DNA of 64,000 nt, from positions 496,001 to 560,000 of the forward strand of contig CAJXMW010000001.1 in the NCBI GenBank assembly GCA_913056235.1, given 5' to 3'. Under the pieces are notes generated by a model. The model searched no databases, had not been told where the DNA came from, and saw nothing but the letters and a program-made list of their open reading frames with translations. Within the stretch, counting starts at the first letter, position 1. Each line of letters starts with the position of its first letter. The DNA comes from an uncultured Fodinibius sp. Lineage in GTDB: Bacteria > Bacteroidota > Rhodothermia > Balneolales > Balneolaceae. The translations under genes and the position numbers were made by a program. Below are positions 42,221-64,000 of the stretch, in pieces.

Positions 42221-42246
42221 CATACATTATTTCAGGACTATAAATA

Positions 42247-42281
42247 AAAAGGGGTTCAATGATTGCCATTGAACCCCTTTT
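42247..42281. terminator. bidirectional rho-independent terminator
   Basis: AAAAGGGGTTCAATG (42247-42261) and CATTGAACCCCTTTT (42267-42281) are perfect 15-base arms with T tracts on both strands. It sits between convergent genes ending at 42220 and 42345. Confidence 0.93.
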
Positions 42282-42344
42282 CTCATCAATAACTACAGCG
42301 TTCAGTAATGGTAGTTGAGAACTGCCAAACTAAAGAGCGATACT

Positions 42345-43628
42345 CTACACATGTTTAAACCGGTCTTTCACTGATTTTTTTAGTGTTTCTCGGTGATCTG
42401 GATGCGCAATATGAATCAGCTCTTTAGCCCGCTCGCGCAGGTTTTTGCCATACAGGTTAGCTACACCATACTCAGTAACTACGTAGTGAACATGTGCCCG
42501 GGTGGTTACCACACCGGCTCCCTGCTTGAGATGCGGCACAATTTTGCTTTCCCCTTTGTTGGTTGTTGACTGCAGCGCAATGATCGGCTTGCCACCTTCA
42601 CTGAGTGAGGCTCCGCGAATGAAATCCATCTGTCCGCCGACCCCAGAATAGTGATAGGTGCCGATTGAGTCGGCGCATACCTGCCCGGTGATATCAACCT
42701 CTACTGCACTATTGATAGCAGTCACTTTGGGATTTCTTCGAATTACGGCCGTGTCGTTTACGTAGGCCACGTCAAGCATTGCAATCATGGGATTATCATC
42801 CACGAAATTGTAAAGATCACGACTGCCCATCACAAAACTGCCGACAATTTTTTCGGGATGTATGGCTTTCTTTTTGTTGGTGATGACACCCTTTTCTACC
42901 AGGTCGATCACCCCATCAGAAAACATCTCGGTATGGATCCCTAAATCCTTGTGCCCATCAAGTGCATCAAGCACGGCGTTGGGGATAGCACCAATACCCA
43001 TCTGAAGGGTGGCCCCATTCTCAACAAGCTCGGCACAGTTTTGACCGATCCTTTTTTCTACATCGCTGGGAGCCGGCATGTTCAGTTCATGCAATGACTC
43101 ATCGGTTTTCACCAGGGCATTGAATCTACTGGCGTGGAAAATACCATCACCATGCGTTCGCGGCATATTGGGGTTTACCAGCGCAATCGCTTTGTCGGCT
43201 TCCTGTAGAGCTGCCCGGCTGGCATCCACCGAAACGCCCAACGAACAGTAGCCGTGCTTATCAGGCGGAGACACTTGTACCAACGCCATGTCGATCGGCA
43301 TAATGCCCTGGCGAAACAGGCCCGGCACTTCGCTCAAGAAAATTGGCATGTAATCAGCACTGCCCTGGTTTACCGCCTTGCGAACATTAGCACCCACGAA
43401 CAGGGCATTCGTATGAAAGGTATCGCTGTACTTTGGCTTCACATAGGGGGCCTCACCCTCGGTATGCAAGTGCACAATTTCAATATTCTCGAGCTCCGGT
43501 GCCCTTTCAGTCATAGCATTAATCAGTGGCTGAGGAGCTGCAGCTACGCTGTGAATAAAAACGCGGTCGCCCGAATTGATAAGTTTTACAGCCTCTTCGG
43601 CCGTCGTGTATTTATCTTGATAAGACAT
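42345..43628 (-). CDS. acetyl-CoA hydrolase/CoA-transferase (4-hydroxybutyrate CoA-transferase group)
   Basis: ATG 43628 (MSYQDKYTTAEE) gives 427 residues. SAVEVDITGQV carries the catalytic Glu of family I-like CoA-transferases and GVGGQMDFIRGA the glycine loop of the acetyl-CoA hydrolase/transferase domain. These enzymes move CoA between acetyl-CoA and another acyl group such as propionate, succinate or 4-hydroxybutyrate. The exact donor pair cannot be read. It complements the acetate-forming genes elsewhere in the window. Confidence 0.9.
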   Translation of the reverse strand: MSYQDKYTTAEEAVKLINSGDRVFIHSVAAAPQPLINAMTERAPELENIEIVHLHTEGEAPYVKPKYSDTFHTNALFVGANVRKAVNQGSADYMPIFLSEVPGLFRQGIMPIDMALVQVSPPDKHGYCSLGVSVDASRAALQEADKAIALVNPNMPRTHGDGIFHASRFNALVKTDESLHELNMPAPSDVEKRIGQNCAELVENGATLQMGIGAIPNAVLDALDGHKDLGIHTEMFSDGVIDLVEKGVITNKKKAIHPEKIVGSFVMGSRDLYNFVDDNPMIAMLDVAYVNDTAVIRRNPKVTAINSAVEVDITGQVCADSIGTYHYSGVGGQMDFIRGASLSEGGKPIIALQSTTNKGESKIVPHLKQGAGVVTTRAHVHYVVTEYGVANLYGKNLRERAKELIHIAHPDHRETLKKSVKDRFKHV

Positions 43629-43678
43629 TGCTTGCAAATGATTAGTAGTTAATGATTTTAATTTTCTTTAATTAAATA

Positions 43679-44089
43679 TCAGCTAGTTCGGTAGGTGGTA
43701 ATGCGATTCCAGTGGAGCTTCACAAACAGTCCAACAGCAGTGAGCTCAAAAATTCTCCCTATCAAATCAAAGGGTAAAGCAAATGATAACAGGGAATCCG
43801 CAATCACGAAAATAATTCCCAGGTTTAATGATGCTATCATCACGTAGGCCAGCCTGCTGTCGCCGCGGGACGGGCCTTCCAGAAATCGGGGTAGCATGTA
43901 ATAGGCCGTGCCCAGCGTCAGCTGTATGATCCAACCGAAAATAGTGACCTCAATATGAATGGGCAGCAGCATCCAAATAGCGGAATGGATAAAGTAGGCC
44001 TTGTGGATGAGCATCATGGCACCCATCAGGATTCCCAAAAACAGATACACAAACGAACATCGAATCATCCATCGACTGGGTCTTGGCAT
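43679..44089 (-). CDS. small NnrS/heme-copper-like membrane protein (copy 2)
   Basis: 136 residues with four membrane helices. HIEVTIFGWIIQLTLGTAYYMLPR contains the His and GWxxQ...GxxxxxxPR pattern shared with the preceding gene, to which it is a tandem paralogue. Its start overlaps the upstream stop (TGATG). The pattern resembles short pieces of heme-copper oxidase subunit I or NnrS, so heme or copper binding is plausible. It is the last gene of a seven-gene coupled operon containing a globin and a cytochrome. Confidence 0.72.
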   Translation of the reverse strand: MPRPSRWMIRCSFVYLFLGILMGAMMLIHKAYFIHSAIWMLLPIHIEVTIFGWIIQLTLGTAYYMLPRFLEGPSRGDSRLAYVMIASLNLGIIFVIADSLLSFALPFDLIGRIFELTAVGLFVKLHWNRITTYRTS

Positions 44090-44532
44090 CAGCTCTCCCT
44101 CCGGCGTTTACGTTTTTTGCGCTGCTGCTTCTTGGACATGATGCGCGGCCACATCTCAATGAGATAAGTTGTGCCACCTGCGACCTGGAGCACGGCTGAA
44201 CCTACCAATAGCACCGACCAAATTTGCGCTTCGGAATATCCCAGGGCCGGTTCGGCTATCAGGCGCAACACCAATCCGGAATTTAGCAAAATGAGAGTTA
44301 GCCAACCCCATTTTTGATTGACAAACCCCTCTTCGCGATTACGACCGGGAAACATCCAGATGGAGACACCAAAGATGATCTGCGTGATCCAGCCTACCAT
44401 TAGCATGTGCCAGAAGAGCGGCATCAGTGCAGGCAACGATACAGCATCGATTTCAAGTAGTAGTCCGGCAATGAGCGATAGTACAAAGTAGACCATGCCG
44501 GCTTTAACGAATGTACGACTAACAAATGGCAT
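44089..44532 (-). CDS. small NnrS/heme-copper-like membrane protein (copy 1)
   Basis: 147 residues, four helices, with PLFWHMLMVGWITQIIFGVS then WMFPGRNREEG, the same His/GWxxQ pattern as its downstream paralogue, and a very basic C-terminus (KKQQRKKRKRRRES). Both ends overlap neighbours as TGATG, so it is co-translated. A role in nitric oxide or heme handling is inferred from the context. Confidence 0.72.
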   Translation of the reverse strand: MPFVSRTFVKAGMVYFVLSLIAGLLLEIDAVSLPALMPLFWHMLMVGWITQIIFGVSIWMFPGRNREEGFVNQKWGWLTLILLNSGLVLRLIAEPALGYSEAQIWSVLLVGSAVLQVAGGTTYLIEMWPRIMSKKQQRKKRKRRRES

Positions 44533-44741
44533 CAGCGTTGAAAATCTTTTGGTTCGTTGCGATTACATTTCTTACAGTCCAGCTTATTGCCCAATCGGCT
44601 TTCGCGTCCCTCGGGGGTTGTTACCCACGGACGCAGTTGCCAAGGCGGATCGTGCCGCACGTGCTGATTGTGTCCGCACGCCAACTCTGCTACCCAGTCG
44701 TCTTCTTCGTCTTTGTGATAGCCGATAATTGGCTGCTCCAT
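44532..44741 (-). CDS. DUF3565 family protein
   Basis: ATG 44741 (MEQPIIGYHKDEEDDWVAEL) gives 69 residues. ACGHNQHVRHDPPW and CKKCNR are the DUF3565 signature, a small zinc- or metal-binding-looking protein found beside denitrification and heme-copper genes. It is coupled to both neighbours (1-base gap upstream, TGATG downstream). Confidence 0.88.
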   Translation of the reverse strand: MEQPIIGYHKDEEDDWVAELACGHNQHVRHDPPWQLRPWVTTPEGRESRLGNKLDCKKCNRNEPKDFQR

Positions 44742-44742
44742 G

Positions 44743-45183
44743 CTACTTATCCGTTTTCCGAGCTTTCGAAATTCTGGTTCTGTAATTCGAGTGGCAATCC
44801 ACACAGCCCTGTTGCACGATACGGTAGTGACGCAACACCTGCTGCATATTCTCCTGCAGCGCAGCCATTCGTATCGAATCGGCGTGGTGATGCACCGTCA
44901 TATCAAAATCTACAAACGTTTTCATTTCTTCCCCCAGCGTTTTTTTGATAATCTGTTTGTCTTCCTGGGTCATTTTGGGATGATCAGAAATGCCACCGGC
45001 GCCCTCGGCTATCATCTCATAATTCTCGGTAAATATGCCCTGATCTACCGTTTGCATATCGGCCAGCAGCATCCGCATCATCGGAATCAGCGGCTGTGTT
45101 TCCGGCTGCTGACGTTGCGAAAATCCAAAAAACGTTGCACCTGTAACTAACATTATTGTCGCAATTACAATCCCGTTTTTCAT
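44743..45183 (-). CDS. exported c-type cytochrome
   Basis: ATG 45183, one base after the upstream stop, gives 146 residues; a TTG at 45192 is in frame but less likely. A signal peptide is followed by a helical domain and a single heme c site, CVDCH, close to the C-terminus, the arrangement of cytochrome c556/c'-like four-helix bundles. HHHADS in the third helix may be a second metal contact. As such proteins can bind nitric oxide, the operon context fits NO chemistry. Confidence 0.85.
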   Translation of the reverse strand: MKNGIVIATIMLVTGATFFGFSQRQQPETQPLIPMMRMLLADMQTVDQGIFTENYEMIAEGAGGISDHPKMTQEDKQIIKKTLGEEMKTFVDFDMTVHHHADSIRMAALQENMQQVLRHYRIVQQGCVDCHSNYRTRISKARKTDK

Positions 45184-45184
45184 C

Positions 45185-45379
45185 TCATTCAAGGTTTTGG
45201 ATTAGCTTTTCCATGTCTAGCGATTGGATGGCACTTACAGCTGCTTCCATAGCGCCTTCAGCACAAAGCCCGCTCATTGATGCATCGCGAAATCCATCCC
45301 TGGCAGCATTGATGCTGGCTTGCCGAATCGATTCTGCCATCTCCATGTTATCTTGGGCCGGGTTACTTGTGTTGTCCAT
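45185..45379 (-). CDS. small helical protein of unknown function
   Basis: ATG 45379, four bases after the globin stop, gives 64 residues: MDNTSNPAQDN, then SIRQASINAARDGF and DASMSGLCAEGAMEAAVSAI. The SGLCxEGAxE segment is a recurring motif of small proteins beside bacterial globins. The 183-residue frame to 45736 runs antiparallel in another frame through the globin and is rejected. Confidence 0.7.
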   Translation of the reverse strand: MDNTSNPAQDNMEMAESIRQASINAARDGFRDASMSGLCAEGAMEAAVSAIQSLDMEKLIQNLE

Positions 45380-45383
45380 GCCT

Positions 45384-45764
45384 TTACTGATTATTTTCGA
45401 ATTCGCCATCCATCTCCATACGCACCGAAAATGACGAGGCAATTTTGCCCGCCATCTCCTTGGCATATTCTGCTTTTTCTCCTTCGAAATGCTGGTCAAC
45501 TGTATCCACAAACAGCTTGTACCAACGCTCAAAATCCATCTTCTCGATCGGCAGTGACACGTGCTGGCGGTAGGGACGTCCCTCGTATCGCTGCGTACGA
45601 AACAACACGTTTGACCAGAAATTAACCATGTTCGGCAGGTGCTTATCCCAATCCACCTCGGCAACATCATTAAAGATATAGCCAAGACGCTCGTGCTCTT
45701 GGACTCGATCGTAGAAAGCGTGAACCAGCGTTTCAATATCGTTGTCGTTTCGAATATCCTGCAT
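45384..45764 (-). CDS. group III truncated hemoglobin
   Basis: ATG 45764 overlaps the TAA of the upstream gene by one base (TAATG). The 126-residue protein has the group III pattern: FYDRVQEHERLGYIFND, WDKHLPNMVNFWSNVLF, then FERWYKLFVDTVDQHFEG with the proximal His. Group III globins bind O2 or NO and are often linked to NO detoxification or reduction in microaerobic bacteria. Confidence 0.92.
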   Translation of the reverse strand: MQDIRNDNDIETLVHAFYDRVQEHERLGYIFNDVAEVDWDKHLPNMVNFWSNVLFRTQRYEGRPYRQHVSLPIEKMDFERWYKLFVDTVDQHFEGEKAEYAKEMAGKIASSFSVRMEMDGEFENNQ

Positions 45765-47017
45765 TATACTTTTTTCTTTTGTGATATTGTAATTGCAACC
45801 CATTGCGTGCCCACAGCCAGTGGGGGTAGTAAGGCCGCGACCACAAGTGCCTGGTATATCCACGTGCCGCCCCAGTTCGCGGGCCAAAAAGCAGTAGGCA
45901 ACACAAGACTAAGCAACACTACAAAAACGGATATGACAATGGCATAAAAATAGCTGTCTGTAATCCCAGACCCACTTTGTAGCCAGGCAGTCATTGTTAG
46001 CGTCAAGGCTCCCAGCAGTAGAACGTGCAGGTAAAAAATACGGAGCGCGTGATCAGACAGCCAGAATGAGGACGGCACGATCGAGGCGAAGAGCTGCATC
46101 ACCGCCTTAAATGCCAGCAGGCCCACTGCCCAACCCCATAACTTGTGCTTCCAGTTGCCTGATGAAATAAAGGTGTAGCTTACACCCAATAACCCAACGG
46201 CAGCTAATCCCCCGCCCAAACGCGCGACCATAAGCAACATCGGTGAAAGTAGCGACTCTGATATGCCATAGGGAAACGTGAGTGGTGCTCCAATCGCGAT
46301 GCAGCCGAGCCAGAAATTAGGCGTCAATTCCCAATCTTCTGATGCAGGTCGGAGCTTCATCACCAGAATAGCCAACAGCACCAGTACTACCCATCCCTCC
46401 GTAAAGGTGGCCAGGAAAAAATGTGTCAAGCTCTTCACAAAAAGATGGTTGTCGGGATCCACAGCCTGTATTATAGCAACGCCCCAGGCCCCCAGCGAAC
46501 AGATCAGCAGCATCACCAGCGCGCCGTCGAACCAGAGCTGTGAAGCATCCGCATCCAACAAATCGCGCACCTTCCGATATCCCCAAAGAAAGCCATACCA
46601 ACAGATCATCACCACTCCCGACAAGATCACTGACAAGGGCAGTGAGACGGATCCCATTTCGACGGGTCGGTATCCATAAAACAAAAAGAAGGGGTAGGCC
46701 AGAACGCCAGCGGCTAGTGCTCCGGCCAGAGAGTACTTCATCAAATCGATACCTCTGCGCTTTTGACCCTCCTTACTAACTATATAGTTAATCAATATAA
46801 CCATTGGGAAGGGTACGGCCCATCCGAAGAACATCAGGTGGGAGTGGGCATGGCGTATGTTATCTAGCGCCAGTCCCAGCGGTGTGGACAACCACCCGAC
46901 CATCCCCAGTCGATACAGGAAACCCGTCAGAGCTGCAATAATAAAGCAACCCAGCGAAATCTTCCAAAGTAGGGGATTCATCCGGGTAGGTTGTTGTGTT
47001 GGAGCTGTTCTATCCAT
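45764..47017 (-). CDS. polytopic membrane protein, NnrS/heme-copper-like
   Basis: The 417-residue protein has about 12 membrane helices. NIRHAHSHLMFFGWAVPFP near residue 48 carries three His close together before a GW motif, as in NnrS and subunit I-like proteins; HALRIFYLHVLLLGALTL near 330 gives further His. It heads the seven-gene operon and overlaps the globin start. It may bind heme or copper and act in NO or nitrogen-oxide metabolism; the ligand set for a proton-pumping oxidase is incomplete. Confidence 0.78.
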   Translation of the reverse strand: MDRTAPTQQPTRMNPLLWKISLGCFIIAALTGFLYRLGMVGWLSTPLGLALDNIRHAHSHLMFFGWAVPFPMVILINYIVSKEGQKRRGIDLMKYSLAGALAAGVLAYPFFLFYGYRPVEMGSVSLPLSVILSGVVMICWYGFLWGYRKVRDLLDADASQLWFDGALVMLLICSLGAWGVAIIQAVDPDNHLFVKSLTHFFLATFTEGWVVLVLLAILVMKLRPASEDWELTPNFWLGCIAIGAPLTFPYGISESLLSPMLLMVARLGGGLAAVGLLGVSYTFISSGNWKHKLWGWAVGLLAFKAVMQLFASIVPSSFWLSDHALRIFYLHVLLLGALTLTMTAWLQSGSGITDSYFYAIVISVFVVLLSLVLPTAFWPANWGGTWIYQALVVAALLPPLAVGTQWVAITISQKKKV

Positions 47018-47089: not shown

Positions 47090-49171
47090 TTATAGAGTCT
47101 CTAACTTCTCGGTCTGTTTATCTTCAGCGAGGGAGCCACGCACGTCCAAGGCATACGCCCCTTCCGGTAATACATACAGGGGATTGATCTCCAGTTCTTT
47201 TATTTCTGGAATATCGTTGGCTAACTGTGCCATCCGCATTAAATACGATATTACAGTTTCCCGGTCAGCCGGTGCTTGGTTTCGCCAGCCTTGAAGTTTT
47301 GTGCCGGCTCTGGTTTTATCGATCAGGTGTTCTGCCTGCATTCGATTCAGCGGAGCTATTCCAGAGGCTACATCTTTGAGTAATTCTACATCCGTACCAC
47401 CGCTGCCAAACAGTACCATCGGACCAAACTGCTCATCCTGCTTGATACCTAGGATCACCTCTTGTCCACCGGTAAACATTTTCTGAATTAACACGCCTTC
47501 CATGACTGCTCCGGCTTTGTTAGCAGATTCTTTTACTTCCTCCCACGCCATTTGTACTTGGTCATCATTCCGCAAGTCCAGTTTTACACCATCTACTTCC
47601 GTTTTGTGACTCACCGATTTGGAAATCAGTTTCAACACCACCGGAAAACCAATTTCTTTTGCAAATTTAAGCGCCTGCTCTGGCGTTTTTGCTTTCTTCT
47701 GCGGCGGCAGTAAAATGTCACATTCACTCAAAACATCTTCCCAGTCCTCCTGAGCCACCGCTCTTCGAATTCCCTTTTTATCAACATCCACTGATTCCGG
47801 GGGTGTATTTTGAGGGGTTTTCAGCCACTGTTTGCGATTCACCATCGCTGAAAGTACTGAGGCCACTCTCTCGGGAAAAGAGACGTTGGGAACCTTTCGC
47901 TTATGTAGAATATTGAGCGCCTCCCCAACCGAGGCCTTACCCATGATGGAAGCAATAACCGGTTTATCGTGCACTCCGGCTACTTCTCCCACTACTTCAG
48001 CCAAACTTGCCGGCAAAAACCAATCCTGCGGAGCCTGAATCACAACAACAGCATCAACGGTTTCATCGGTTAACAAGGCATCCAGCGCTACCGCGTAGGT
48101 GCCCGGACCCGATCCGGCCAGTACATCAACCGGATTACTGACACTGGCCGCTTTGGGCAATCGGGAGCGCAGGTATGATTTTGTACTATCAGTGAGCGTT
48201 GCTAATTCAAGTCCGGACTTTTCGAGGGCATCTACCGCCAGTATTGCCGGACCGCCGGCATTGGTCAGCACTCCCACTCTCTTTCCCCGAGGCAACGGCT
48301 GCCAAGCTAGGGCGCGAGCCCAGTCAAACATCTCCTCCATCGTATTGGCCTGTTGCACGCCACTTCGTTCAAATGCTGCTTCATATGCTTCGGCACTACC
48401 CGCCAGTGCTCCCGTATGAGACGCCACTGCCTTAGCACCACTTTCTCCTCGTCCACTCTTCAACGCCACTACCGGTTTATTCAGTGCAGCCTTTTTAGTT
48501 GCCTCCAGGAAGGCCTGCCCATCCGAAACGCCTTCAATATAGGCCGTAATCACCTTTGTTTCCCGATCTTCAGCCAGTGCTTCTATCATCTGTGTTTCAT
48601 TAACGTCAACCTGGTTTCCCAAGCTTACGATACGAGAAAAGCCGACACCGGCCCCGCGCGCCCAGTCTATTACGGAAGCTACCATCGCACCCGACTGCGA
48701 ACAAAATCCTATTTCCCCGGTCTCTGGCATGCCCGTGACGAAGGTCGTGTTTACCGGGGTATGCGTATCAATAGTGCCGATACAATTGGGGCCAATAACC
48801 CGCATATCCTGATCTTTCGCAATTTCCTTTAATTTTTCTTCAAGTGCTTTCCCTTCTTCGCCGGTTTCGCTGAAACCGCCGCTGATTATAATGGCATGCC
48901 GAATGCCGCGCGCCCCACACTCCCTGAGCATATCAGGCACCACTGGTGCAGGGACTACAATAACGGCTAGATCAACCGGATCGGGAACCTCGCTGACAGA
49001 AGGGTAACACGGCTCACCCAGAATTTCTGAGGCCGATTTGTTGACCGGATAGATCGCTCCGCTGTAACGAAACTCCTTGAGATTTCGAACTACACCGTAT
49101 CCCAGCTTGTGCGGATCTCGGGAAGCCCCAATGACAGCAACGCCCTTGGGTTTAAAAAAAGAATCCAGCAT
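47090..49171 (-). CDS. acetate--CoA ligase (ADP-forming), fused subunits
   Basis: The 693-residue protein has a CoA-binding domain (VAVIGASRDPHKLGYGVV), a succinyl-CoA-synthetase-like domain with the phospho-His loop ASHTGALAGS, and a C-terminal ATP-grasp domain (GFPVVLKLISKSVSHKTEVD, then LIQKMFTGGQEVILG). It converts acetyl-CoA, ADP and phosphate to acetate and ATP, or the reverse with other acyl groups. It lies 73 bases upstream of the seven-gene operon on the same strand. Confidence 0.93.
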   Translation of the reverse strand: MLDSFFKPKGVAVIGASRDPHKLGYGVVRNLKEFRYSGAIYPVNKSASEILGEPCYPSVSEVPDPVDLAVIVVPAPVVPDMLRECGARGIRHAIIISGGFSETGEEGKALEEKLKEIAKDQDMRVIGPNCIGTIDTHTPVNTTFVTGMPETGEIGFCSQSGAMVASVIDWARGAGVGFSRIVSLGNQVDVNETQMIEALAEDRETKVITAYIEGVSDGQAFLEATKKAALNKPVVALKSGRGESGAKAVASHTGALAGSAEAYEAAFERSGVQQANTMEEMFDWARALAWQPLPRGKRVGVLTNAGGPAILAVDALEKSGLELATLTDSTKSYLRSRLPKAASVSNPVDVLAGSGPGTYAVALDALLTDETVDAVVVIQAPQDWFLPASLAEVVGEVAGVHDKPVIASIMGKASVGEALNILHKRKVPNVSFPERVASVLSAMVNRKQWLKTPQNTPPESVDVDKKGIRRAVAQEDWEDVLSECDILLPPQKKAKTPEQALKFAKEIGFPVVLKLISKSVSHKTEVDGVKLDLRNDDQVQMAWEEVKESANKAGAVMEGVLIQKMFTGGQEVILGIKQDEQFGPMVLFGSGGTDVELLKDVASGIAPLNRMQAEHLIDKTRAGTKLQGWRNQAPADRETVISYLMRMAQLANDIPEIKELEINPLYVLPEGAYALDVRGSLAEDKQTEKLETL

Positions 49172-49287
49172 TATCCTGAACCATTTATATTTAAGACTAT
49201 TTTATCTTAAATTATCGCTAATTGCATGTTTTTCAAAATTAAATAACACATTTATTTAGACTTTACCTTTACAAAACGGACTTACTT

Positions 49288-50682
49288 ATGAAGCTTAATG
49301 AATTCCATACCGATACCATTATCGAACCTTTTCGAATTCGCTCGGTAGAGCCTATTCGCTTTACCACGATGGAAGAGCGCACTCAGCTGCTCAAGAAAGC
49401 ACACTATAATCCTTTTCTACTCAAGGGACGGGATGTGCTGATCGACCTCTTGACTGACAGCGGTACGGGTGCAATGTCATCCCAGCAGTGGTCTGGAATG
49501 ATTGCCAGTGATGAATCCTATGCCGGTTCGTCTTCCTTTTACCGGCTTGAGTCGGCTGTCAAAGATATAACCGGGTTCAAACACCTAATTCCAACGCACC
49601 AGGGACGAGCTGCAGAAAACATTCTCTTTACCACCATCGCCGGCAAAGGGGATGTCATCCCCAGCAATACACATTTTGATACTACTCGGGCCCACGTAGA
49701 ACATGCCGGAGCTGAAGCCCGTGATCTCGTCATCGAGGAGGGCAAACAGCCGCGTACCCAACATCCTTTCAAGGGAAATATGGACTTGGGCAAACTAGAA
49801 GAGACCATCAAAGAGGTGGGAAGCGACCGCATTCCCGTCATCATGATTACGGTTACCAACAATTCCGGGGGCGGTCAGCCGGTCAGCATGGAGAATATCC
49901 GGTCGGTTTCGGAAATTGCGCAAGAATACGGCATCCCGTTTTTTATTGATGCCTGTCGCTTTGCTGAAAATGCATGGTTTATCAAGAGCCGGGAAAAGGG
50001 TTTTGAAGAAAAATCAACTATTGATATCGCCCGCCAGATGTTCAGCTATGCGGATGGATGCACGATGAGTGCTAAAAAAGACGGCATGGCCAATATCGGT
50101 GGCTTTTTAGCTTTAAACAGTGATGAACTGGCTTCCGAGTGTCGTAACCTTGAAATTCTTACCGAGGGTTTTCCCACTTATGGAGGTATGGCCGGCTATG
50201 ATATGGAAGCTGTGGCCCGCGGGCTTTACGAGGCCCTGGACGAAGACTACCTGCGCTACCGTATTCGCTCTATTGCATATCTGGGGGATAAACTCACTGA
50301 GGCCGGAATACCTATCGTACAACCCACCGGCGGACATGCCGTCTATATCGATGCCAAAGAGATGCTTTCCCATATTCCACCCACACAATATCCGGCCTGG
50401 TCGTTTAATAATGCGTTGTACCTGCTGGGCGGCATTCGCGGCGTGGAAATCGGAACCGTCATGTTTGGTAAACAACCCGACGGGACAGAAAAAGCTGCAA
50501 GTATGGAACTGGTTCGCCTGGCGTTTCCGCGTAGAGTTTATACCCAAAGCCATGTCGATTATTTAGCAGAGGTAATTATTAATGCCTATAAACAGCGTAA
50601 GAAATTGCGGGGCTATAAGATCGTAGACGGCCCTGATGTACTACGACACTTTTCTGCTAAATTGGAACCAATCGAAGACTAG
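49288..50682 (+). CDS. tnaA: tryptophanase
   Basis: The 464-residue beta-eliminating lyase has the PLP lysine in MSAKKDGMANIGG and the tryptophanase-type markers FDTT (THFDTTRAH), IRGVEIGTVM and the C-terminal LRHFSAKL, whose His matches the TNase active-site His. Tyrosine phenol-lyases have Phe here. It would cleave tryptophan to indole, pyruvate and ammonia. It is convergent with the tyrosine phenol-lyase at 51001. No tnaC-like leader or tnaB permease is adjacent. Confidence 0.88.
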   Translation: MKLNEFHTDTIIEPFRIRSVEPIRFTTMEERTQLLKKAHYNPFLLKGRDVLIDLLTDSGTGAMSSQQWSGMIASDESYAGSSSFYRLESAVKDITGFKHLIPTHQGRAAENILFTTIAGKGDVIPSNTHFDTTRAHVEHAGAEARDLVIEEGKQPRTQHPFKGNMDLGKLEETIKEVGSDRIPVIMITVTNNSGGGQPVSMENIRSVSEIAQEYGIPFFIDACRFAENAWFIKSREKGFEEKSTIDIARQMFSYADGCTMSAKKDGMANIGGFLALNSDELASECRNLEILTEGFPTYGGMAGYDMEAVARGLYEALDEDYLRYRIRSIAYLGDKLTEAGIPIVQPTGGHAVYIDAKEMLSHIPPTQYPAWSFNNALYLLGGIRGVEIGTVMFGKQPDGTEKAASMELVRLAFPRRVYTQSHVDYLAEVIINAYKQRKKLRGYKIVDGPDVLRHFSAKLEPIED

Positions 50683-54359: not shown

Positions 54360-55082
54360 TCAATTTAGTCGGTTTTCCAGCTCAAGTGCTTTTGGGAACA
54401 GGATGTTATTTTCCAGGTGCACGTGCTTGTGCAGGTCATCCTGGAACCCCTCCAGATTTTGGAACAGCACCCGATAGGTTGCGCAGGCGTCCTCGGGCGG
54501 CGTAAAGTTGTTGGTCCATTTTTGGATCTTAGCCATCGCTTCACCCGCCTCATCGTGCTCTTCTTCCATCATCTCCACAGGATCTTCCACACTACCGAAA
54601 TCAGGTTCTTTTTCCATTTTTTCTCCAGTCTGATCAATCCTAACCAGCTCTTTTATATAGGGGAATAGCATCTGCTCTTCTTTCTCCAGGTGGTCCAACA
54701 ACTCGTCTTTCAGCATCAGGAACTCATCCAGTATTTCATTGAGTTCTTCGTGGCGACTCCCGTGCACCTTTGCCACTTTCTTGGCATAAGTTTCAATTTC
54801 CGGAAGCTTGGATCGCACAAACCGATGATGTCGCTGCTCGATATAGTCGATAAGCAACTCGGGTGACCATTCTTTGTAATTGTGGCTGTCATCACCTTCC
54901 GTAGTTACCGCTTCGAGCTCATCCAGTAACGTATTCAAGTTGATACCTTTTTGCTCGCAAGCCTCTGCCACCGGCTTTCCGCCGCCACAACAGAAGTCCA
55001 GACCAAATTTTTTAAATACACCGGCGGTGCGGTAATCTTCGGCTACAATTTCTCCAACTTTTTGTTCTTTGAATATTTCCAT
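54360..55082 (-). CDS. scdA: iron-sulfur cluster repair di-iron protein (RIC/ScdA/YtfE)
   Basis: The 240-residue protein has an N-terminal ScdA domain (TAGVFKKFGLDFCCGGGKPV with the CCGGG motif) and a hemerythrin-like domain with di-iron ligands in QRHHRFVRSKLP, HLEKEEQMLFP, EEHDEAGE and HKHVHLENNILFP. It repairs Fe-S clusters after nitric oxide or oxidative damage. Its place beside nitrogen-oxide genes fits. Upstream, TTGATCTTAAATAA at about 55128-55141 is a weak FNR-like half site. Confidence 0.94.
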   Translation of the reverse strand: MEIFKEQKVGEIVAEDYRTAGVFKKFGLDFCCGGGKPVAEACEQKGINLNTLLDELEAVTTEGDDSHNYKEWSPELLIDYIEQRHHRFVRSKLPEIETYAKKVAKVHGSRHEELNEILDEFLMLKDELLDHLEKEEQMLFPYIKELVRIDQTGEKMEKEPDFGSVEDPVEMMEEEHDEAGEAMAKIQKWTNNFTPPEDACATYRVLFQNLEGFQDDLHKHVHLENNILFPKALELENRLN

Positions 55083-55193
55083 AGTAATCTGCTTTGCTTG
55101 AATATATTATATTTAATAGTCTTTTGTCTTATTTAAGATCAATTTTCCCATTTTGATAACCCGGAGCATCATTGCCCCAGGCCACCTAAGTTA

Positions 55194-59343: not shown

Positions 59344-60135
59344 TTAGAAATCCTTTTCATTAAAAAGACTTTTGCCTCTCCAGAGCGGTATGCCCAGCCA
59401 TAAGGCCAGGCAACCACTGGCTACCGTAATACCCAGCATGCTGCCAAAAAAGCGATTAAAAACCGCGCCGGTATAACCCATTAGGGCGGAGATATCAAAT
59501 TCGAGCAGTACGGTTATTCGAGCCAGATCAATCGGGTTCAGCATGGCCATACCCAGCATAGGCTCTTCGATGGGATAATCGCCAAGCAAGAAAATGGCCA
59601 GCAGTACCAACCCATCATAAATAACAGCCAAGAACAACCAGCTTACCAATGCAAAGCCCAGTCCTTTAATACGATCATTGAAGAACTTGAGCCCCAGCCA
59701 AAATCCCAGCCCGGTAAACAATAGTGTTAACACATTACCGAGCACAAGTATCACAAATATGGATTGTAAATTGGCTGTCAGAATCATACCAGTATATAAC
59801 ATGGGTATTCCTATGCCAGCTGTATACGCCAGCGCAAGCGGGGCAGCCAGACCTCCAAACAATCCCCAAAACAGGGTGGGTCGGTCGAGTGGCTGTGCCA
59901 GCAACAGCTCAGTAAATTCCCGGGACTGATACAAGTACAACGCGCCGTAGATCATCCCCACCAAGGGAATAAGCAACAACATGATATTAGAGATACTAAG
60001 CATTGCTTTCGTACCCGTTCCGCCAAAGCGGATCATGGCATCGGCCATAAGCAAATAGATCAAGCCATAGCCAATAATCCACTTCCCCCTAAACAGGTCC
60101 TTCCACTGATATTTTAGGATCGTCATCGCTTTCAT
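59344..60135 (-). CDS. nosY: NosY, permease subunit of the nos copper-delivery ABC transporter
   Basis: The 263-residue protein has six membrane helices. REFTELLLAQPLDRPTLFWG is the conserved ABC-2 segment of NosY. It works with NosF and NosD to supply the copper-sulfur centre CuZ of nitrous oxide reductase. Its start overlaps the nosF stop (ATGA). Confidence 0.93.
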   Translation of the reverse strand: MKAMTILKYQWKDLFRGKWIIGYGLIYLLMADAMIRFGGTGTKAMLSISNIMLLLIPLVGMIYGALYLYQSREFTELLLAQPLDRPTLFWGLFGGLAAPLALAYTAGIGIPMLYTGMILTANLQSIFVILVLGNVLTLLFTGLGFWLGLKFFNDRIKGLGFALVSWLFLAVIYDGLVLLAIFLLGDYPIEEPMLGMAMLNPIDLARITVLLEFDISALMGYTGAVFNRFFGSMLGITVASGCLALWLGIPLWRGKSLFNEKDF

Positions 60136-60842
60136 GCTGCTGCTTCCTCCATCATTTTTGCCACAGCGCCTTCTAGCCGCTGCTCTTGCTGTTTCTCAAT
60201 TAAGTCTTTCATAGGACCGTGATACCTGATCTTACCTTCAACAATGAAAATCAAATAATCGGCCAGTTCTTCGATCTCACTCATAATATGTGAGGTGAGC
60301 AGTATGGTTTTGCCCTGCTGCTTTTCTTGATTCACCAGATTTTTAAACTGCACGCTGGCATGCGGATCAAGTCCTGCTGTGGGCTCATCAAAAATCAATA
60401 TCTGTGGATCAAACATCATTGCCAGTACGGCACCCACTTTTTGCCGGGTACCGCCGGAAAGGGTACGCATGCGCTTTTTCAGCTCAGGCTGTAAACCAAA
60501 ATGCTGGATCAGCTCTTCTTCGCTTGTTTGTTTTGCACCACGTATATTTTTTATAAATGTAAATAGCTCGGCTACAGTCATATTCTCGGGATACCGTGCA
60601 GTCTGCGGCATGTAGCCAATTTTTTGCCGATAATTCCACTTTCCTATTACGGATTCGCCATCAACGTGAATGTCTCCGTCATCAGGTTTTACCAGTCCCA
60701 GAAGCGTCTTGATAGCAGTGGTTTTTCCTGAGCCATTGGGGCCCACAATGCCAGTGGCCTGCCCGGACGGAATTTCCAGGCTGATATCATCAAGAACCGT
60801 AAGGGGACCAAATTTTTTCCTCAATCCTTTAATTGTAATCAT
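60132..60842 (-). CDS. nosF: NosF, ABC ATPase of the nos system
   Basis: The 236-residue protein has Walker A GPNGSGKT, signature LSGGTRQKVG, Walker B ILIFDEPTAGLDP and the switch His in TSHIMSEIEEL. It powers the NosDFY complex. It overlaps nosD and nosY by four bases each, so all three are co-translated. Confidence 0.95.
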   Translation of the reverse strand: MITIKGLRKKFGPLTVLDDISLEIPSGQATGIVGPNGSGKTTAIKTLLGLVKPDDGDIHVDGESVIGKWNYRQKIGYMPQTARYPENMTVAELFTFIKNIRGAKQTSEEELIQHFGLQPELKKRMRTLSGGTRQKVGAVLAMMFDPQILIFDEPTAGLDPHASVQFKNLVNQEKQQGKTILLTSHIMSEIEELADYLIFIVEGKIRYHGPMKDLIEKQQEQRLEGAVAKMMEEAAA

Positions 60843-62089
60843 GATACTTTGGTCATTTTCGGTTGGGAGTCTACCAGTGTTTCGGGCGTTAGTACCGGCA
60901 TAATGCGCTCGGCTGCATCAAGGATATCGATGAGCAAGCTGCGCAGCAGCAATAGCGACTGCGGCTGCTTTTCAACTAATATGGAAAACAGTCGTACCGG
61001 TCGGTGCGGGACGTCGCCTATTCCATCCCGATCCAGATCGTACCCTTCATAATGACTCCAGTAGTTATTGTTGAATTCGTTGTAATTTTTCATGCTATTT
61101 GTCGCCACCTCAAAACTGTTGGCGATAAAGTTATTTTCTGTAAACATATTGTCCGTCGAGTTCGCCATCAGCTTAACTGCCCAACCATTCTGATGAAAGG
61201 TATTATGCCTAATTTCGTTGCGACTGGTTGCCTCGATATAGAGGCCTACCGAATTGTTATAAAATTCATTGCCGACAATTTTACTTCGGTTAATCTCTTT
61301 CAGCAGCAATCCATAGGCCGAAGAACCCCAGTTGTCTTCAAAACGGTTATTTATGATTTCAACATTAGAAGTGTACATAACAGCCACGCCACCGCCGTTA
61401 TCCCGAAAGGTGTTATCCTCATACCGGCAGTTATCCGAGTACATAAAGTGAATACCGTACCGGATATTTTCCTCACTAAGATTGCCCTTTATCGTGGCCC
61501 CGTCGACAAATTCAAAGTAGAGACCATCGCGGTGACCTTTCATATAATTGTCTTCAATCCTGATGTCTTTTGAATACCAAAGATGGATAGCATTACCAGA
61601 TTGTGTTTCACGCTTCATCGATGCCGTGATGTGATTATTTTTGATCAGTGCATTCGATGACTTTGCCAGGTAAATACCAAAATAATTATCGGTCAACGTA
61701 ACGTTTTCGATGACAGCACCATCCGTCTCTTTGACGAGTATACCCGCATAATCCTCCATAAAGCTGGTGCTGGCATGCATTACCTCAACATTTTTAAGCG
61801 TCACATCATCAGCTCTAATTATGATCACAAAACCCTGCCGATTACCGTCAATTTGCACATTTCCTTCACCGAGAATCGTCATCTGTTTGTCAACGGTAAT
61901 ACTATGCTCTTCGTAGCGTCCTTCTTTGATAATCAGCGTATCTCCGGGTTCGGCACGATCAACCCCTTCTTTAATAGAGCTAATACTTCCGTTCTTTGAT
62001 ACGGTAATTTGAGTTGCCCATCCTTGCTGCGTAAGAAATGCCAGCAGCAGGACTAATAACAATCCTGTTATTTTATTATTCGCCCACAT
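60839..62089 (-). CDS. nosD: NosD, periplasmic copper-center maturation protein
   Basis: ATG 62089 (MWANNKITGLLL) gives 416 residues with a signal peptide and a right-handed beta helix of CASH/NosD repeats (NVTLTDNYFGIYLAKSSNAL is one turn). The C-terminal helix is short. It delivers sulfur or copper for CuZ assembly with NosFY. An in-frame TTG at 62095 is a less likely start. Confidence 0.94.
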   Translation of the reverse strand: MWANNKITGLLLVLLLAFLTQQGWATQITVSKNGSISSIKEGVDRAEPGDTLIIKEGRYEEHSITVDKQMTILGEGNVQIDGNRQGFVIIIRADDVTLKNVEVMHASTSFMEDYAGILVKETDGAVIENVTLTDNYFGIYLAKSSNALIKNNHITASMKRETQSGNAIHLWYSKDIRIEDNYMKGHRDGLYFEFVDGATIKGNLSEENIRYGIHFMYSDNCRYEDNTFRDNGGGVAVMYTSNVEIINNRFEDNWGSSAYGLLLKEINRSKIVGNEFYNNSVGLYIEATSRNEIRHNTFHQNGWAVKLMANSTDNMFTENNFIANSFEVATNSMKNYNEFNNNYWSHYEGYDLDRDGIGDVPHRPVRLFSILVEKQPQSLLLLRSLLIDILDAAERIMPVLTPETLVDSQPKMTKVS

Positions 62090-62130
62090 TTTCAATCCTC
62101 AATCCTTTTTTACAATTAGTACTCTATAAC

Positions 62131-62580
62131 CTACCTGCTCATATTCATCTTTATCTTTGATACTTCTTCCCAGTTCATGAGCATTCCGGGCTTCTCCTGC
62201 AAATGCTTTTTTGCCACTTCTTGCGATGGAAATGCCAACAGCGATTCGCCCATCGGACTCTTCACAACTTCACTTTTCACAAACTGGGCATTCGGTGCCA
62301 TCAGCCATTGGCCGTGCTTATTGTAGTTATTCACCCAAAGCTTGGCCCCCTTAAATTCCTCGCTGTGATTGCGATGATATACCGCCATGCATTCGATGGC
62401 ATCAAACTTGATTGCTTTCCCCTTTTCTGTCACAATCTGTGAAGCAAAGTGGGGATCGGTAATCATCATTTTGCAGTGCGCACATTCATCACTGCCGTAA
62501 TGTATCTCCACCGGCTCTTGACTACAAGCCGACATTAATACTATCAAGATTAAACCTACTGCTGTTTTAAATGAAGTCAT
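62131..62580 (-). CDS. nosL: NosL, copper chaperone lipoprotein
   Basis: The 149-residue lipoprotein (signal ending LMSACSQE) has DECAHCKMMI, the NosL motif with Cys and Met copper ligands, and IKFDAIECMAVYH. It binds Cu(I) for nitrous oxide reductase at the membrane. It sits 41 bases before nosD. Confidence 0.94.
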   Translation of the reverse strand: MTSFKTAVGLILIVLMSACSQEPVEIHYGSDECAHCKMMITDPHFASQIVTEKGKAIKFDAIECMAVYHRNHSEEFKGAKLWVNNYNKHGQWLMAPNAQFVKSEVVKSPMGESLLAFPSQEVAKKHLQEKPGMLMNWEEVSKIKMNMSR

Positions 62581-62605
62581 CGCCTACCTCGTTATTTTTA
62601 CTTAA

Positions 62606-63232
62606 CTATGCAGTAACTTTGGTTTCCTTACCGGTACCAACCTTTCCACTTTCACCTTCGTTATCGGTGTCACCACTTTTCCACCATGCCAACGAAGCAA
62701 TGCTCATAGAAAGTAGCGCTACGTAAAATCCAATGTGAGGCATGGAAGTAGCATTGATATTCAACAGTTGCTTACTGCCAAGAAGCGGGGGTTGGTACGT
62801 CATGCCCGGCACTTTTATTGGCGCATTGGGATTTAGGTTATGGCCGTAATCATATCCCCATAGGTAAAAGTCTACCAGCCCGGCAATGGCAAACAGTACA
62901 AAAACTCCAAGCCACACCAGGATCCATTTACGACTGCCCCAGATGGCAATTACTATGCCCGAGACAATCAAGAGTCCAAAGATTATTGGCATTATTTTGA
63001 GCTCGGGAATTGATTCGGGTGTAATGGGCTTCATCCCGATGTAGTGATTCAGTCCGTTTATGTTCGCCAGGTCATGGAATTCTTTACCCTGTATATCATT
63101 CACGGTGATATTCATGCCAATGCCTTCCGGGTACTGCGGCGCTTCCATATTAATACTCCAGATTGGGAAAAAGTATACCAGTATCAGTAGTAATGATGCT
63201 ATTCCCATCCAGGTTCTTTGTTGTTTGTTCAT
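62606..63232 (-). CDS. four-helix membrane protein between nosZ and nosL (NosB-like)
   Basis: The 208-residue protein has four membrane helices (about 10-28, 80-98, 105-127, 165-185) and a periplasmic loop after the first, rich in conserved-looking Gly/Asn (GLNHYIGMKPITPESIPELK). Proteins of this shape beside nosZ in clade II clusters have been called NosB. No enzymatic motif is present; it is probably needed for nitrous oxide reductase maturation or electron supply. C-terminal Gly/Thr/Lys tail. Confidence 0.8.
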   Translation of the reverse strand: MNKQQRTWMGIASLLLILVYFFPIWSINMEAPQYPEGIGMNITVNDIQGKEFHDLANINGLNHYIGMKPITPESIPELKIMPIIFGLLIVSGIVIAIWGSRKWILVWLGVFVLFAIAGLVDFYLWGYDYGHNLNPNAPIKVPGMTYQPPLLGSKQLLNINATSMPHIGFYVALLSMSIASLAWWKSGDTDNEGESGKVGTGKETKVTA

Positions 63233-63270
63233 AATAGTTACCTCACGGGTTTACAGTTTTCATAAGAAGA

Positions 63271-63296
63271 GGAAGGGAGGCTTCACCCTCCCCTCC
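63271..63296. other. stem-loop between nosZ and the NosB-like gene
   Basis: GGAAGGGAGG (63271-63280) pairs with CCTCCCCTCC (63287-63296) with one mismatch, in the 83-base gap behind nosZ. It may set differential expression of nosZ over the maturation genes. Confidence 0.5.
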
Positions 63297-63315
63297 ACAA
63301 AGGATTGAGGTCATT

Positions 63316-64000
63316 TTACTGACCTGTTCCGTAGGCGATTTCTACGTCTGAATCTTTTTCTGATACTCGTACATAACCCTGCATCTCTTGGTGTAATGCA
63401 GAACAGAAGTCGGTGCAGTAGAACGGCACAACACCTGCTTTTTTGGGCTGCCATTTCAGGGTCAATGTTTCACCCGGCATAATCAGGAGTTCAGCGGTAT
63501 TCGCTCCCTTAATTGCAAAGCCGTGGGGCACATCCCAGTCCTGCTCGAGATTAGTCACGTGGAAGTACACGTCGTCGCCCACTTTTACACCCTCGATATT
63601 GTCTGGCGTAAAGTGACTTCGAATCGTCGTCATATAAATGTGCACCTCATTACCTTTGCGAACCACTTTTGCTTGTTTTTCGCTTGTGGTTGCTTTCGGG
63701 TGTCCATTTTCTTCAAGCTTATAGAACCGTTTCTGATTCTTTATTACTTTGTCAGCCTTGATAGCCTGTGCATAGTGCGGCTCTCCCTCGGTCGGGAAAT
63801 CGAGCAACATCTTCATTTTTTCACCAGAAATATCAATCAGCTGTGCTGAGTGGAACATCTCGGGGCCCGTTGGCAAGAAACGATCCTTGGTAATCTTGTT
63901 AAGCGAAACCAAGTATTTCCCGTCTGGATTCTGGCTGTCGCCGCCGGGGATCATCAAGTGACCGGGAGAGTAGTAAACATCAATACGATCAACCACTTCC
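63316..64000 (-). CDS. nosZ: nitrous oxide reductase, C-terminal part
   Basis: Open from the right edge, giving about 228 residues. The cupredoxin domain carries the CuA set: DVPHGF (His), FYCTDFCSALHQEM (two Cys, His, Met). Upstream lies part of the beta-propeller domain. It reduces N2O to N2 in the periplasm. The gene order with a NosB-like protein and nosL next to it is like clade II (Sec-exported) clusters, but the signal peptide is outside the window. Confidence 0.96.
   Translation of the reverse strand, partial: EVVDRIDVYYSPGHLMIPGGDSQNPDGKYLVSLNKITKDRFLPTGPEMFHSAQLIDISGEKMKMLLDFPTEGEPHYAQAIKADKVIKNQKRFYKLEENGHPKATTSEKQAKVVRKGNEVHIYMTTIRSHFTPDNIEGVKVGDDVYFHVTNLEQDWDVPHGFAIKGANTAELLIMPGETLTLKWQPKKAGVVPFYCTDFCSALHQEMQGYVRVSEKDSDVEIAYGTGQ

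Follow-up and report, generated by a model that had tools for sequence, protein, structure and literature searches.

A modular Fodinibius operon encoding a predicted oxidase-fold protein and two one-arc relatives as a candidate accessory of a denitrification regulon

Aerobic respiration and nitric oxide (NO) reduction both centre on haem-copper oxidases. The binuclear site of their subunit I is formed by a histidine in helix 6, a His-His pair in helix 7 and two histidines in helix 10, and the helix-2 histidine of CcoN is a ligand of the low-spin haem. The three arcs of CcoN match one another (E 2e-6 to 1e-5), an internal threefold repeat. Proteins of the RIC/ScdA/YtfE type repair NO-damaged iron-sulfur clusters. 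In proteobacteria NnrS, a membrane protein of the haem-copper type, is regulated jointly with dnrN (RIC), nir, nor and nos (PMC1274295).

The window analyzed here is a 64-kb stretch of DNA from an uncultured Fodinibius, a salt-loving bacterium. On its minus strand, from 47017 to 43679, lies a seven-gene operon (A-G, Table 1) whose junctions, read from the DNA, agree with the initial annotation: TAATG between A and B, a 4-base gap between B and C, 1 base between C and D and again between D and E, and TGATG at both E/F and F/G. The A-B-C-D-E-F-G order recurs in five further genomes, all Fodinibius/Aliifodinibius (L103, L104, L105, L106 and L107, in which the second member of the tandem pair is G even where, as is often the case, its match carries the label F), and its presence in six genomes including this one is more than chance would give. 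The fixed stoichiometry that had been read from the tight junctions does not follow, since their lengths vary among L103-L107, with F/G gaps of +34 to +280 and an E/F overlap of 13. A-G are probably part of a nine-gene unit running from 49171 to 42246, headed by an acyl-CoA ligase gene whose stop lies 72 bp ahead of gene A and completed downstream by an acyl-CoA hydrolase/transferase gene. In L099 and L100 the latter likewise follows G immediately, and in L103 it lies 3 kb beyond G. The terminator-like hairpin that closes the probable unit is the longest of 10 in the window, shuffled sequences giving 7.7 sites of the minimum kind. The seven-gene set itself is not fixed but made up of separable modules: F-G has a wide distribution, Gracilimonas and Balneola loci carry A+F+G, and the groups B-C, C-E, B-C-E and B-D-C-E are found apart from A, F and G.

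Table 1. Coordinates of the features discussed, counted from the first base of the window.
Feature	Position	Strand	Remarks
Gene A, 12-helix membrane protein, 417 aa	45764..47017	-	predicted haem-copper oxidase subunit I fold
Gene B, group III truncated haemoglobin, 126 aa	45384..45764	-	PF01152 E 4e-6; 2ig3 E 6.9e-14
Gene C, 64 aa	45185..45379	-	motif SGLCxEGAxEAAxxAIQ
Gene D, cytochrome c'-like protein	44743..45183	-	N-terminal hydrophobic segment, one CXXCH
Gene E, DUF3565, 69 aa	44532..44741	-	PF12088 E 3.5e-33
Gene F, 4-helix one-third haem-copper-oxidase-like protein, 147 aa	44089..44532	-	His42 invariant 39/39
Gene G, 4-helix paralogue of F, 136 aa	43679..44089	-	His45 invariant 38/38
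Acetyl-CoA hydrolase/transferase family gene	42345..43637	-	Pfam AcetylCoA_hyd_C, AcetylCoA_hydro; directly downstream of G
Intrinsic-terminator-like hairpin, 17 pairs	42246..42282	-	end of probable nine-gene unit
Acyl-CoA ligase (ADP-forming type)	47090..49171	-	Pfam ATP-grasp_5, Succ_CoA_lig, CoA_binding_2
Palindromic operator-like site TAAGACTATTTTATCTTA	49192..49209	.	20 bases ahead of acyl-CoA ligase start codon
Second operator-like site, one mismatch	55114..55131	.	ahead of RIC gene; 15.5 bits
RIC/ScdA/YtfE-type di-iron protein	54360..55082	-	Pfam ScdA_N, Hemerythrin; same putative regulon
Nitrous oxide reductase cluster	59344..63996	-	nosZ (cut by window edge), nosL, nosD, nosF, nosY

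The predicted model of A (pLDDT 86.5) has the 12 membrane helices noted initially, the second of them kinked. It could be aligned to the cbb3 oxidase chain 3mk7_D with Z 33.5 and an rmsd of 3.0 over 391 residues, all 12 helices being covered, and was matched by Foldseek to cNOR (E 1.5e-5). All three 4-helix arcs of haem-copper oxidase subunit I are present in the predicted fold of A, but the full set of catalytic ligands is not. Unlike known subunits I, such as CcoN, NorB and qNOR, it lacks the helix-7 histidine pair and matched no Pfam family; for PF00115, none of 19 members did so at E<=5. Histidines are retained in helices 2, 6 and 10 (H56, H58, H60 and H331 in 23/23 sequences, H199 in 20/23), and only H199 in helix 6 and H331 in helix 10 represent the binuclear ligands. 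As helix 7 has no conserved histidine and helix 10 has one, the usual binuclear site cannot be built, so that A could hold haem and perhaps another metal, not a normal catalytic Cu/Fe site.

The original description of A, F and G as three NnrS-like proteins proved only loosely right. A shares with the one NnrS fetched for comparison (L227) an HxHxMxFG motif in the second hydrophobic stretch (HAHAMVFG, HSHLMFFG); in contrast, Pfam NnrS (PF05940) was matched by 0/19 members of A at E<=5, and hhalign of A against part of the L227 protein gave 0.8%. PF05940 was matched by 3/39 members of F at E<=0.1 (best 2.1e-6), was absent among the families matched by the 38 members of G and had no match in the source genome. 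The three proteins are better described by the haem-copper-oxidase fold, whole in A and one third in F and G.

F and G are, as had been recognised, short paralogous membrane proteins (hhalign E 9e-31), and look like one third of the subunit I fold. The model of G (pLDDT 90.9) comprises 4 helices, corresponding to one arc, and its best VIA-align matches were arcs of qNOR (Z 13.9) and cbb3 (Z 12.7); on a second look some oxidase chains rank below MAPEG-type 4-helix enzymes, and none of its Foldseek matches reached E<=0.001, the best having E 0.23. Pfam COX1 (PF00115) was matched at E<=0.1 by 37/38 members of G (best 4.8e-10) and 36/39 of F (best 3.5e-11), the window's own F and G scoring under the cut-off. 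In profile comparisons G matched the first CcoN arc at 84.9%, against 1.3% for arc 2 and 3.5% for arc 3, and its His45 was aligned with the helix-2 histidine of CcoN; the invariant histidine of F lies two residues further on. Compared with a complete 12-helix subunit I, there are 4 helices (in the G model) and a single invariant histidine per chain. The match to the first arc might suggest that F and G are inert leftovers of a ccoN gene that broke apart, a reading we consider hardly credible and already contradicted by the invariant residues, which hold down to 33% identity in F and 29% in G (39 and 38 sequences), and by the tandem order, which is kept in 42/44 loci (contig ends interrupt the remaining two) and from Balneolaceae to Calditrichota- and Chloroflexi-titled records. 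Together these indicate long purifying selection.

B, claimed as a group III globin, aligns with 2ig3 over residues 6-113; unlike that haemoglobin it is encoded together with a membrane protein, and a single reading frame covers both A and B in Fodinibius halophilus. D, the proposed mono-heme cytochrome, resembles cytochrome c' in length and in its C-terminal CXXCH, and 11/11 members match PF01322 at E<=0.1 (best 5e-5), although the window's D, at 23.2 bits, falls below the curated cut-off of 26.5. E far exceeds the PF12088 cut-off of 25 bits (113.8 bits), and its invariant residues in an alignment of 14, CGH..HVRH...CxxC, look like a metal site. The 64-residue protein C is present as annotated, with Cys39 invariant in 14 sequences and no known family found. 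Our searches returned no assigned function for A, C or DUF3565, and no description of a whole-oxidase-shaped protein with two one-third partners in an NO-linked cluster.

The NO link proposed at the outset is supported by a common site, by gene neighbourhood and by co-occurrence. The site, with the pattern TAAGA-N8-TCTTA, lies in the divergent region common to the ligase gene and a tryptophanase-like gene (49288-50682, plus strand) and scores 21.7 bits with a PWM built on 12 sites from other genomes. At >=13 bits this PWM has 2 matches in 64 kb versus 0.1 in mononucleotide shuffles, and a site of at least 11 bits precedes the acyl-CoA ligase in 7/7 loci scanned, representing 5 distinct genomes. 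On the other side of the argument, sites also precede nosX208 in 3/25 loci, and the tryptophanase-like gene has one ahead of it in 8/23 owing to the divergent arrangement. Elsewhere in the source genome the palindrome is found ahead of nirK, of an Rrf2-cytochrome c-nosZ operon and of a further Rrf2 gene, with a weaker copy ahead of RIC; the head of the window's nos cluster, beyond the window edge, is such an Rrf2 gene. The same site stands ahead of putative target genes and of the putative Rrf2 regulator's own gene, as in NsrR-type NO regulons, whose likeness here lies in Rrf2 genes sharing a palindrome with RIC, nirK and nosZ operons; in contrast, neither TAAGA-N8-TCTTA nor the members A-G occur in the available portion of PMC1274295. 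A one-mismatch scan of the window gave a count at chance level. The exact pattern is no commoner than its reversed control in four genomes (7, 6, 5 and 6 vs 5, 5, 11 and 11), so the case for a regulon rests on the positions of the sites. From these we infer that the palindrome is probably bound by an Rrf2-family, NsrR-like repressor.

In a survey of 247 genomes, in which families A, E and F were counted, nosZ or nirK(-like) genes were present in 33/33 genomes with F and 82/214 without it (Fisher p 6e-13, uncorrected for phylogeny), and in 22/23 genomes with A. Scattering over genomes devoid of nitrogen-oxide genes, the refuting outcome named at the outset, was not seen for F or A; E is looser (14/17 genomes, the other 3 having neither nosZ nor nirK(-like)). 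Neighbourhoods of A and F include nos, RIC, nirK and Rrf2-like genes, but 14/44 F loci and 11/22 A loci have neither RIC nor nos in the fetched stretch.

Several surveyed Balneolaceae genomes combine nirK(-like) and nosZ with no recognised NO reductase, and A, F and G might be an unrecognised NO-reducing complex replacing it, with haem in the F/G arcs, a second haem or metal site in A and D as electron donor. No NOR-type protein was found in 8 of the 14 F-bearing genomes with PF00115 proteins listed (G000, G227, G143, G159, G187, G089, G235 and G003; a G000 protein of 477 residues that lacks the tyrosine was set aside in this count), and nirK(-like) and nosZ are both present in G000, G227, G159, G235 and G003. 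We nevertheless regard such a complex as very unlikely. The ligand set of the nitric oxide reductase haem b3/non-haem iron site is absent from A, F and G, and the histidine pattern of A precludes the usual binuclear site; F also coexists with real NORs, with a qNOR adjoining it in G047, NOR-type proteins in G092, G171 and G211 and further candidates in G061 and G073. Moreover, ba3 oxidases can reduce NO. It is likewise quite unlikely that F and G are living one-third oxidases which associate with each other, and perhaps with A, to rebuild a haem site known otherwise from the 12-helix enzyme alone, and which together with A form an NO-consuming membrane complex supplying the missing reductase step in those Fodinibius that have NirK and NosZ but no recognised NOR.

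The neighbourhoods could also point to haem or copper handling, in which A, F and G would serve the assembly of NosZ, NirK and oxidases in denitrification and not consume NO: A adjoins nosD, nosF, nosY, nosL, hemN and CtaA-like genes (CtaA from sequence reading), and a second F-G pair in the source genome lies about 5 kb from a ccoNO operon. This, too, we think unlikely, as RIC, the globin and cytochrome c' are families of NO stress, not of cofactor assembly, and 8 of the genomes with F lack nosZ, every one of them carrying a nirK(-like) gene.

We favour, with a probability of about 0.58, the explanation that A-G are an accessory NO-tolerance part of a denitrification regulon, with F and G jointly holding haem. 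An Rrf2-family, NsrR-like iron-sulfur repressor would occupy TAAGA-N8-TCTTA until damaged by NO, the putative inducer, whereupon transcription of the acyl-CoA ligase gene and A-G would begin alongside that of RIC, nirK and the nos operon. Haem would then be placed at three levels: in the cytoplasm by B, outside the membrane by D and inside the membrane by A, F and G. A may hold haem, perhaps with another metal, within its subunit I fold. One invariant helix-2 histidine from each of F and G makes an F-G complex the likely active form, with a b-type haem shared between the two proteins. The A-G set would bind and dispose of NO near the membrane, and A and F-G may be haem proteins that carry electrons and so hold the globin and the cytochrome, which would bind the NO, in the reduced state; for F-G the basis of this putative role is the one histidine per chain.

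Conserved, co-encoded one-arc proteins make it possible to ask by experiment whether one arc on its own is able to fold, pair and bind haem; they thereby bear on the architecture of the haem-copper superfamily and on how it may have originated or been dismantled. DUF3565, gene C and gene A are now tied to nitrogen oxides, and the cluster and its site together outline a denitrification/NO regulon in Balneolaceae.

Genes A, E and F were surveyed together with nitrogen-oxide genes in 247 genomes of the phylum, of which 86 carry nosZ and 40 carry nirK above the cut-off; nirK-like refers to 13 genomes whose TIGR02376 scores, 128 to 177 bits, stay below the cut-off of 296. Gene A, encoding a 12-helix membrane protein, was found in 23 genomes, DUF3565 (gene E) in 17 and F, one of two neighbouring 4-helix membrane proteins, in 35. 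From the last set G002 and G059, both carrying nosZ, were removed as the match lay within ORFs of ~430 aa, leaving 33 genomes spread over 19 genera. nosZ was present in 25/33 F genomes vs 61/214 others, and nosZ or a nirK(-like) gene in all 33 vs 82/214 (p 6e-13, with genomes that are kin to each other counted as independent). The same was true for 22/23 genomes with A, the exception (G046) retaining nosY, nosF and a truncated nosD next to A, with no nosZ found, and for 14/17 genomes with DUF3565. These proportions support the nitric oxide module proposed in the initial annotation. Close to nirK we found DUF3565 in G054 and G163, F-G in G143 and a weak relative of A in G029, while in locus L181 genes C and E lie with an Rrf2-like gene and RIC, which encodes a ScdA/YtfE-type di-iron protein, around nirK. 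Across 44 loci, nos or RIC genes were in the fetched stretch of 30 and absent from 14. RIC proteins serve to repair iron-sulfur clusters damaged by NO, and NsrR-type members of the Rrf2 family are iron-sulfur repressors. Our literature search found no paper that mentions nosZ, clade II, Balneola and nitric oxide together. Two other proteins recurred in these neighbourhoods: a 208-residue protein without a Pfam family between nosZ and nosL, with relatives in most nos clusters of the fetched loci (29 matches), and a CopD/DUF4149-like membrane protein of ~163 residues beside Rrf2, RIC or nirK-like genes (by Pfam in L183, by eye in the others).

All seven genes and their junctions were recovered on the minus strand as first described, and the order A-B-C-D-E-F-G is the same in five further genomes with the full set (L103-L107). 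Spacing in those five ranges from 13-base overlaps to a 280-base gap (a B>C value of -362 in L103 being an artefact of a too early start in the ORF list), so the fixed stoichiometry read from the junctions is unsupported. Reduced sets also occur: L024/L102 are without B, L026 is without a recognised C, L098 and L099 have neither A nor D, and Gracilimonas, Balneola and related loci have A+F+G only. In L100 (Fodinibius halophilus) C is absent, and A and the globin B form a single continuous 542-residue reading frame, which may be a real membrane protein-globin fusion or may stem from a sequencing error where A meets B. Judging by equal lengths, several loci are one contig represented twice (L024/L102, L025/L107, L028/L112, L030/L109, L081/L108, L084/L123 and L085/L121). 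Acyl-CoA enzymes flank the nitric oxide genes. On the same strand, 72 bp separate the end of an upstream acyl-CoA ligase gene from A. Downstream of G, after ~40 bp, comes an acetyl-CoA hydrolase/transferase gene and then a terminator-like hairpin. The transcription unit therefore probably comprises nine genes. A scan of sigma-70 promoters gave 10 matches vs 9.4 expected by chance.

Coordinates of the features discussed (window positions unless prefixed by a genome or locus)
Feature	Position	Strand	Remark	Score (bits)
Window	G000:C1:496001-560000		in 3.97-Mb genome	
Genes A-G	47017 to 43679	-	seven genes	
Probable transcription unit	49171 to 42246	-	nine genes	
Acyl-CoA ligase	47090-49171	-	divergent from tryptophanase-like gene	
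Terminator-like hairpin	42282-42246		17 pairs	
Palindromic site	49192-49209		before acyl-CoA ligase heading the A-G unit	21.7
Tryptophanase-like gene	49288-50682	+		
RIC	54360-55082	-		
Palindromic site	55114		before RIC	15.5
208-residue protein	62606-63232	-	between nosZ and nosL	
CopD/DUF4149-like protein	L183:6831-7319			
CopD/DUF4149-like protein	L212:1426-1962			
CopD/DUF4149-like protein	L082:8934-9422			
A-B single frame	L100:7690-9318		542 residues	
Second F-G pair (L078)	G000:C1:466500-486400		outside window	

A shared regulatory site was sought by counting palindromes (all 5-base half-sites, spacers 2 to 8) in 179 distinct regions upstream of RIC, A, hemN, B and F. The top palindrome, TAAGA-N8-TCTTA, occurred in 9 regions vs 0.15 in mononucleotide shuffles, always before RIC or A. 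A matrix built from 12 such sites, with no contribution from the genome studied here (G000), retrieved two sites of >=13 bits in the window vs 0.1 in shuffles. At >=11 bits, sites preceded 7/7 acyl-CoA ligase genes (5 distinct genomes), 2/15 E, 3/25 nosX208, 8/23 tryptophanase-like genes (in part through the shared divergent site), 30/45 RIC and 4/39 A, the last two counts being partly circular because RIC and A promoters supplied the training set of the matrix; the acyl-CoA ligase, nirK, Rrf2 and window sites lie outside that set. None was found before 93 F, 28 nosD, 27 nosF, 25 nosY or 13 hemN genes. The exact pattern occurs at 7 places in G000, three of them elsewhere and four preceding an Rrf2 gene, an Rrf2-cytochrome c-nosZ operon (the cytochrome being assigned from its CXXCH), nirK (by about 230 bp) and the A-G unit. 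In three relatives, 7/17 places precede RIC, Rrf2-nos or ligase genes (three each in the same-genus genomes G081 and G151, one in G227). As these places are no more numerous than those of a reversed-pattern control, the weight rests on their positions; a one-mismatch scan of the window was likewise not above chance by count (4 vs 1.9). The Rrf2 protein is a putative binder of the palindrome, and the divergent tryptophanase-like gene may be under the same control as the A-G unit.

The initial annotation had described A, F and G as three NnrS-like proteins, a label we do not retain: the Pfam NnrS family was matched by 3/39 F relatives only, and hhalign showed no likeness between A and a partial NnrS sequence. 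None of 19 A members matched any Pfam family, and the profiles of A, F and G found nothing in the PDB by sequence. The AlphaFold2 prediction for A (18 sequences, pLDDT 86.5) has 12 membrane helices, the second one kinked, and resembles whole haem-copper oxidase subunit I (Foldseek E 1.5e-5 to cNOR 3o0r and cbb3 6xkw; VIA-align Z 33.5 to 3mk7_D, rmsd 3.0 over 391 residues). Conserved histidines lie in helix 2 (56, 58, 60), helix 6 (199, 20/23) and helix 10 (331), with none in helix 7; the binuclear site of haem-copper oxidases draws on one His of helix 6, a pair in helix 7 and two in helix 10. Homology of A to F/G in sequence was rejected (hhalign just 0.7-15%); what they have in common is a predicted fold, not a detectable sequence likeness. 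The models and profiles suggest replacing the NnrS label by a predicted haem-copper fold, whole in A and one third in F and G.

F and G are paralogous and form a tandem in 42/44 loci, the remaining two being at contig ends. The four-helix G model (38 sequences, pLDDT 90.9) fits a single arc, that is, one 4-helix third of subunit I (qNOR 278-440, Z 13.9; 3mk7 302-465, Z 12.7; bovine 1occ 12-175, Z 12.2), whereas other oxidase arcs reach only Z 8.5 to 9 and MAPEG-type 4-helix enzymes up to 10.9. Since Z under about 13 can reflect the common arrangement of helical bundles, the fold assignment of G leans also on COX1 (PF00115) matches, obtained for 37/38 G and 36/39 F (E<=0.1) and falling, in the genome searches, mainly at positions 1-150 of 436. 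With the G model, Foldseek placed cbb3 and ba3 chains on top, with E no better than 0.23. Hhalign of G against CcoN gave 84.9% for arc 1, 1.3% for arc 2 and 3.5% for arc 3, and F reached 33% with arc 1. F/G as an ancestral unit equally near all three arcs was therefore rejected, and the likeness favours descent from the first CcoN arc, although it is possible that this arc is merely the least changed. Among the papers listed in literature searches on a threefold origin of haem-copper oxidases, none addressed that origin in its title or abstract. His45 of G (38/38) corresponds in the alignment to the CcoN helix-2 His, and His42 of F (39/39) lies two residues further on, where G has Glu47; the simplest reading would be that F and G share one haem between them. 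F and G of L124 are closely like those of Calditrichaceae L134, making the Deltaproteobacteria label of L124 doubtful. G000 has a second F-G pair (L078), preceded by RIC, another globin, another C and a lipoate-ligase-like gene. A ccoNO operon lies ~5 kb from this pair, and its CcoN-like protein carries Phe in place of the cbb3 helix-7 tyrosine (HHFVF). In L091, L095 and L097, from other classes of the phylum, an F-like protein occurs with a DUF1858/DUF2249 protein, a 421-residue COX1-matching membrane protein (Pfam assignments from L091) and, by eye, a MIP18-like protein, with RIC and Crp or Rrf2-like regulators nearby, possibly a parallel version of the A-G module.

PF00115 proteins were listed for 15 genomes, 14 of them F-bearing. 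G092, G171, G211 and G047 have NOR-type proteins that lack the active-site tyrosine; G061 and G073 have candidates for such proteins. The other eight had only oxidases with the tyrosine, save a 477-residue CcoN-like protein of G000 with Phe at that place, and five of these eight carry both nirK(-like) and nosZ. This absence of a NOR-type protein leaves room for A/F/G taking part in NO reduction, against which their ligand set argues. ba3 oxidases can reduce NO.

As to the remaining proteins, B is by sequence a group III truncated globin. D is cytochrome c'-like, below the curated cut-off, with a single CXXCH close to its C-terminus, and its profile retrieved a small soluble cytochrome c from the PDB (E 0.028). 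In E, Cys22, His24, His27, His30, Cys56 and Cys59 are invariant (14 sequences) and look like a metal site; no literature on DUF3565 was found. C, of 64 residues, carries an invariant SGLC and had no relatives in the libraries searched. PDB searches with C and E gave insignificant matches only. Plasmid searches, at the limits used, found no relatives of C or G, and DUF3565 in 4 records, two of which are Microvirga regions without gene annotation.

Together, our analyses confirm the operon and support a nitric oxide interpretation of A-G, to which the predicted one-arc F-G pair and the outlined, putative regulon would be the new elements.
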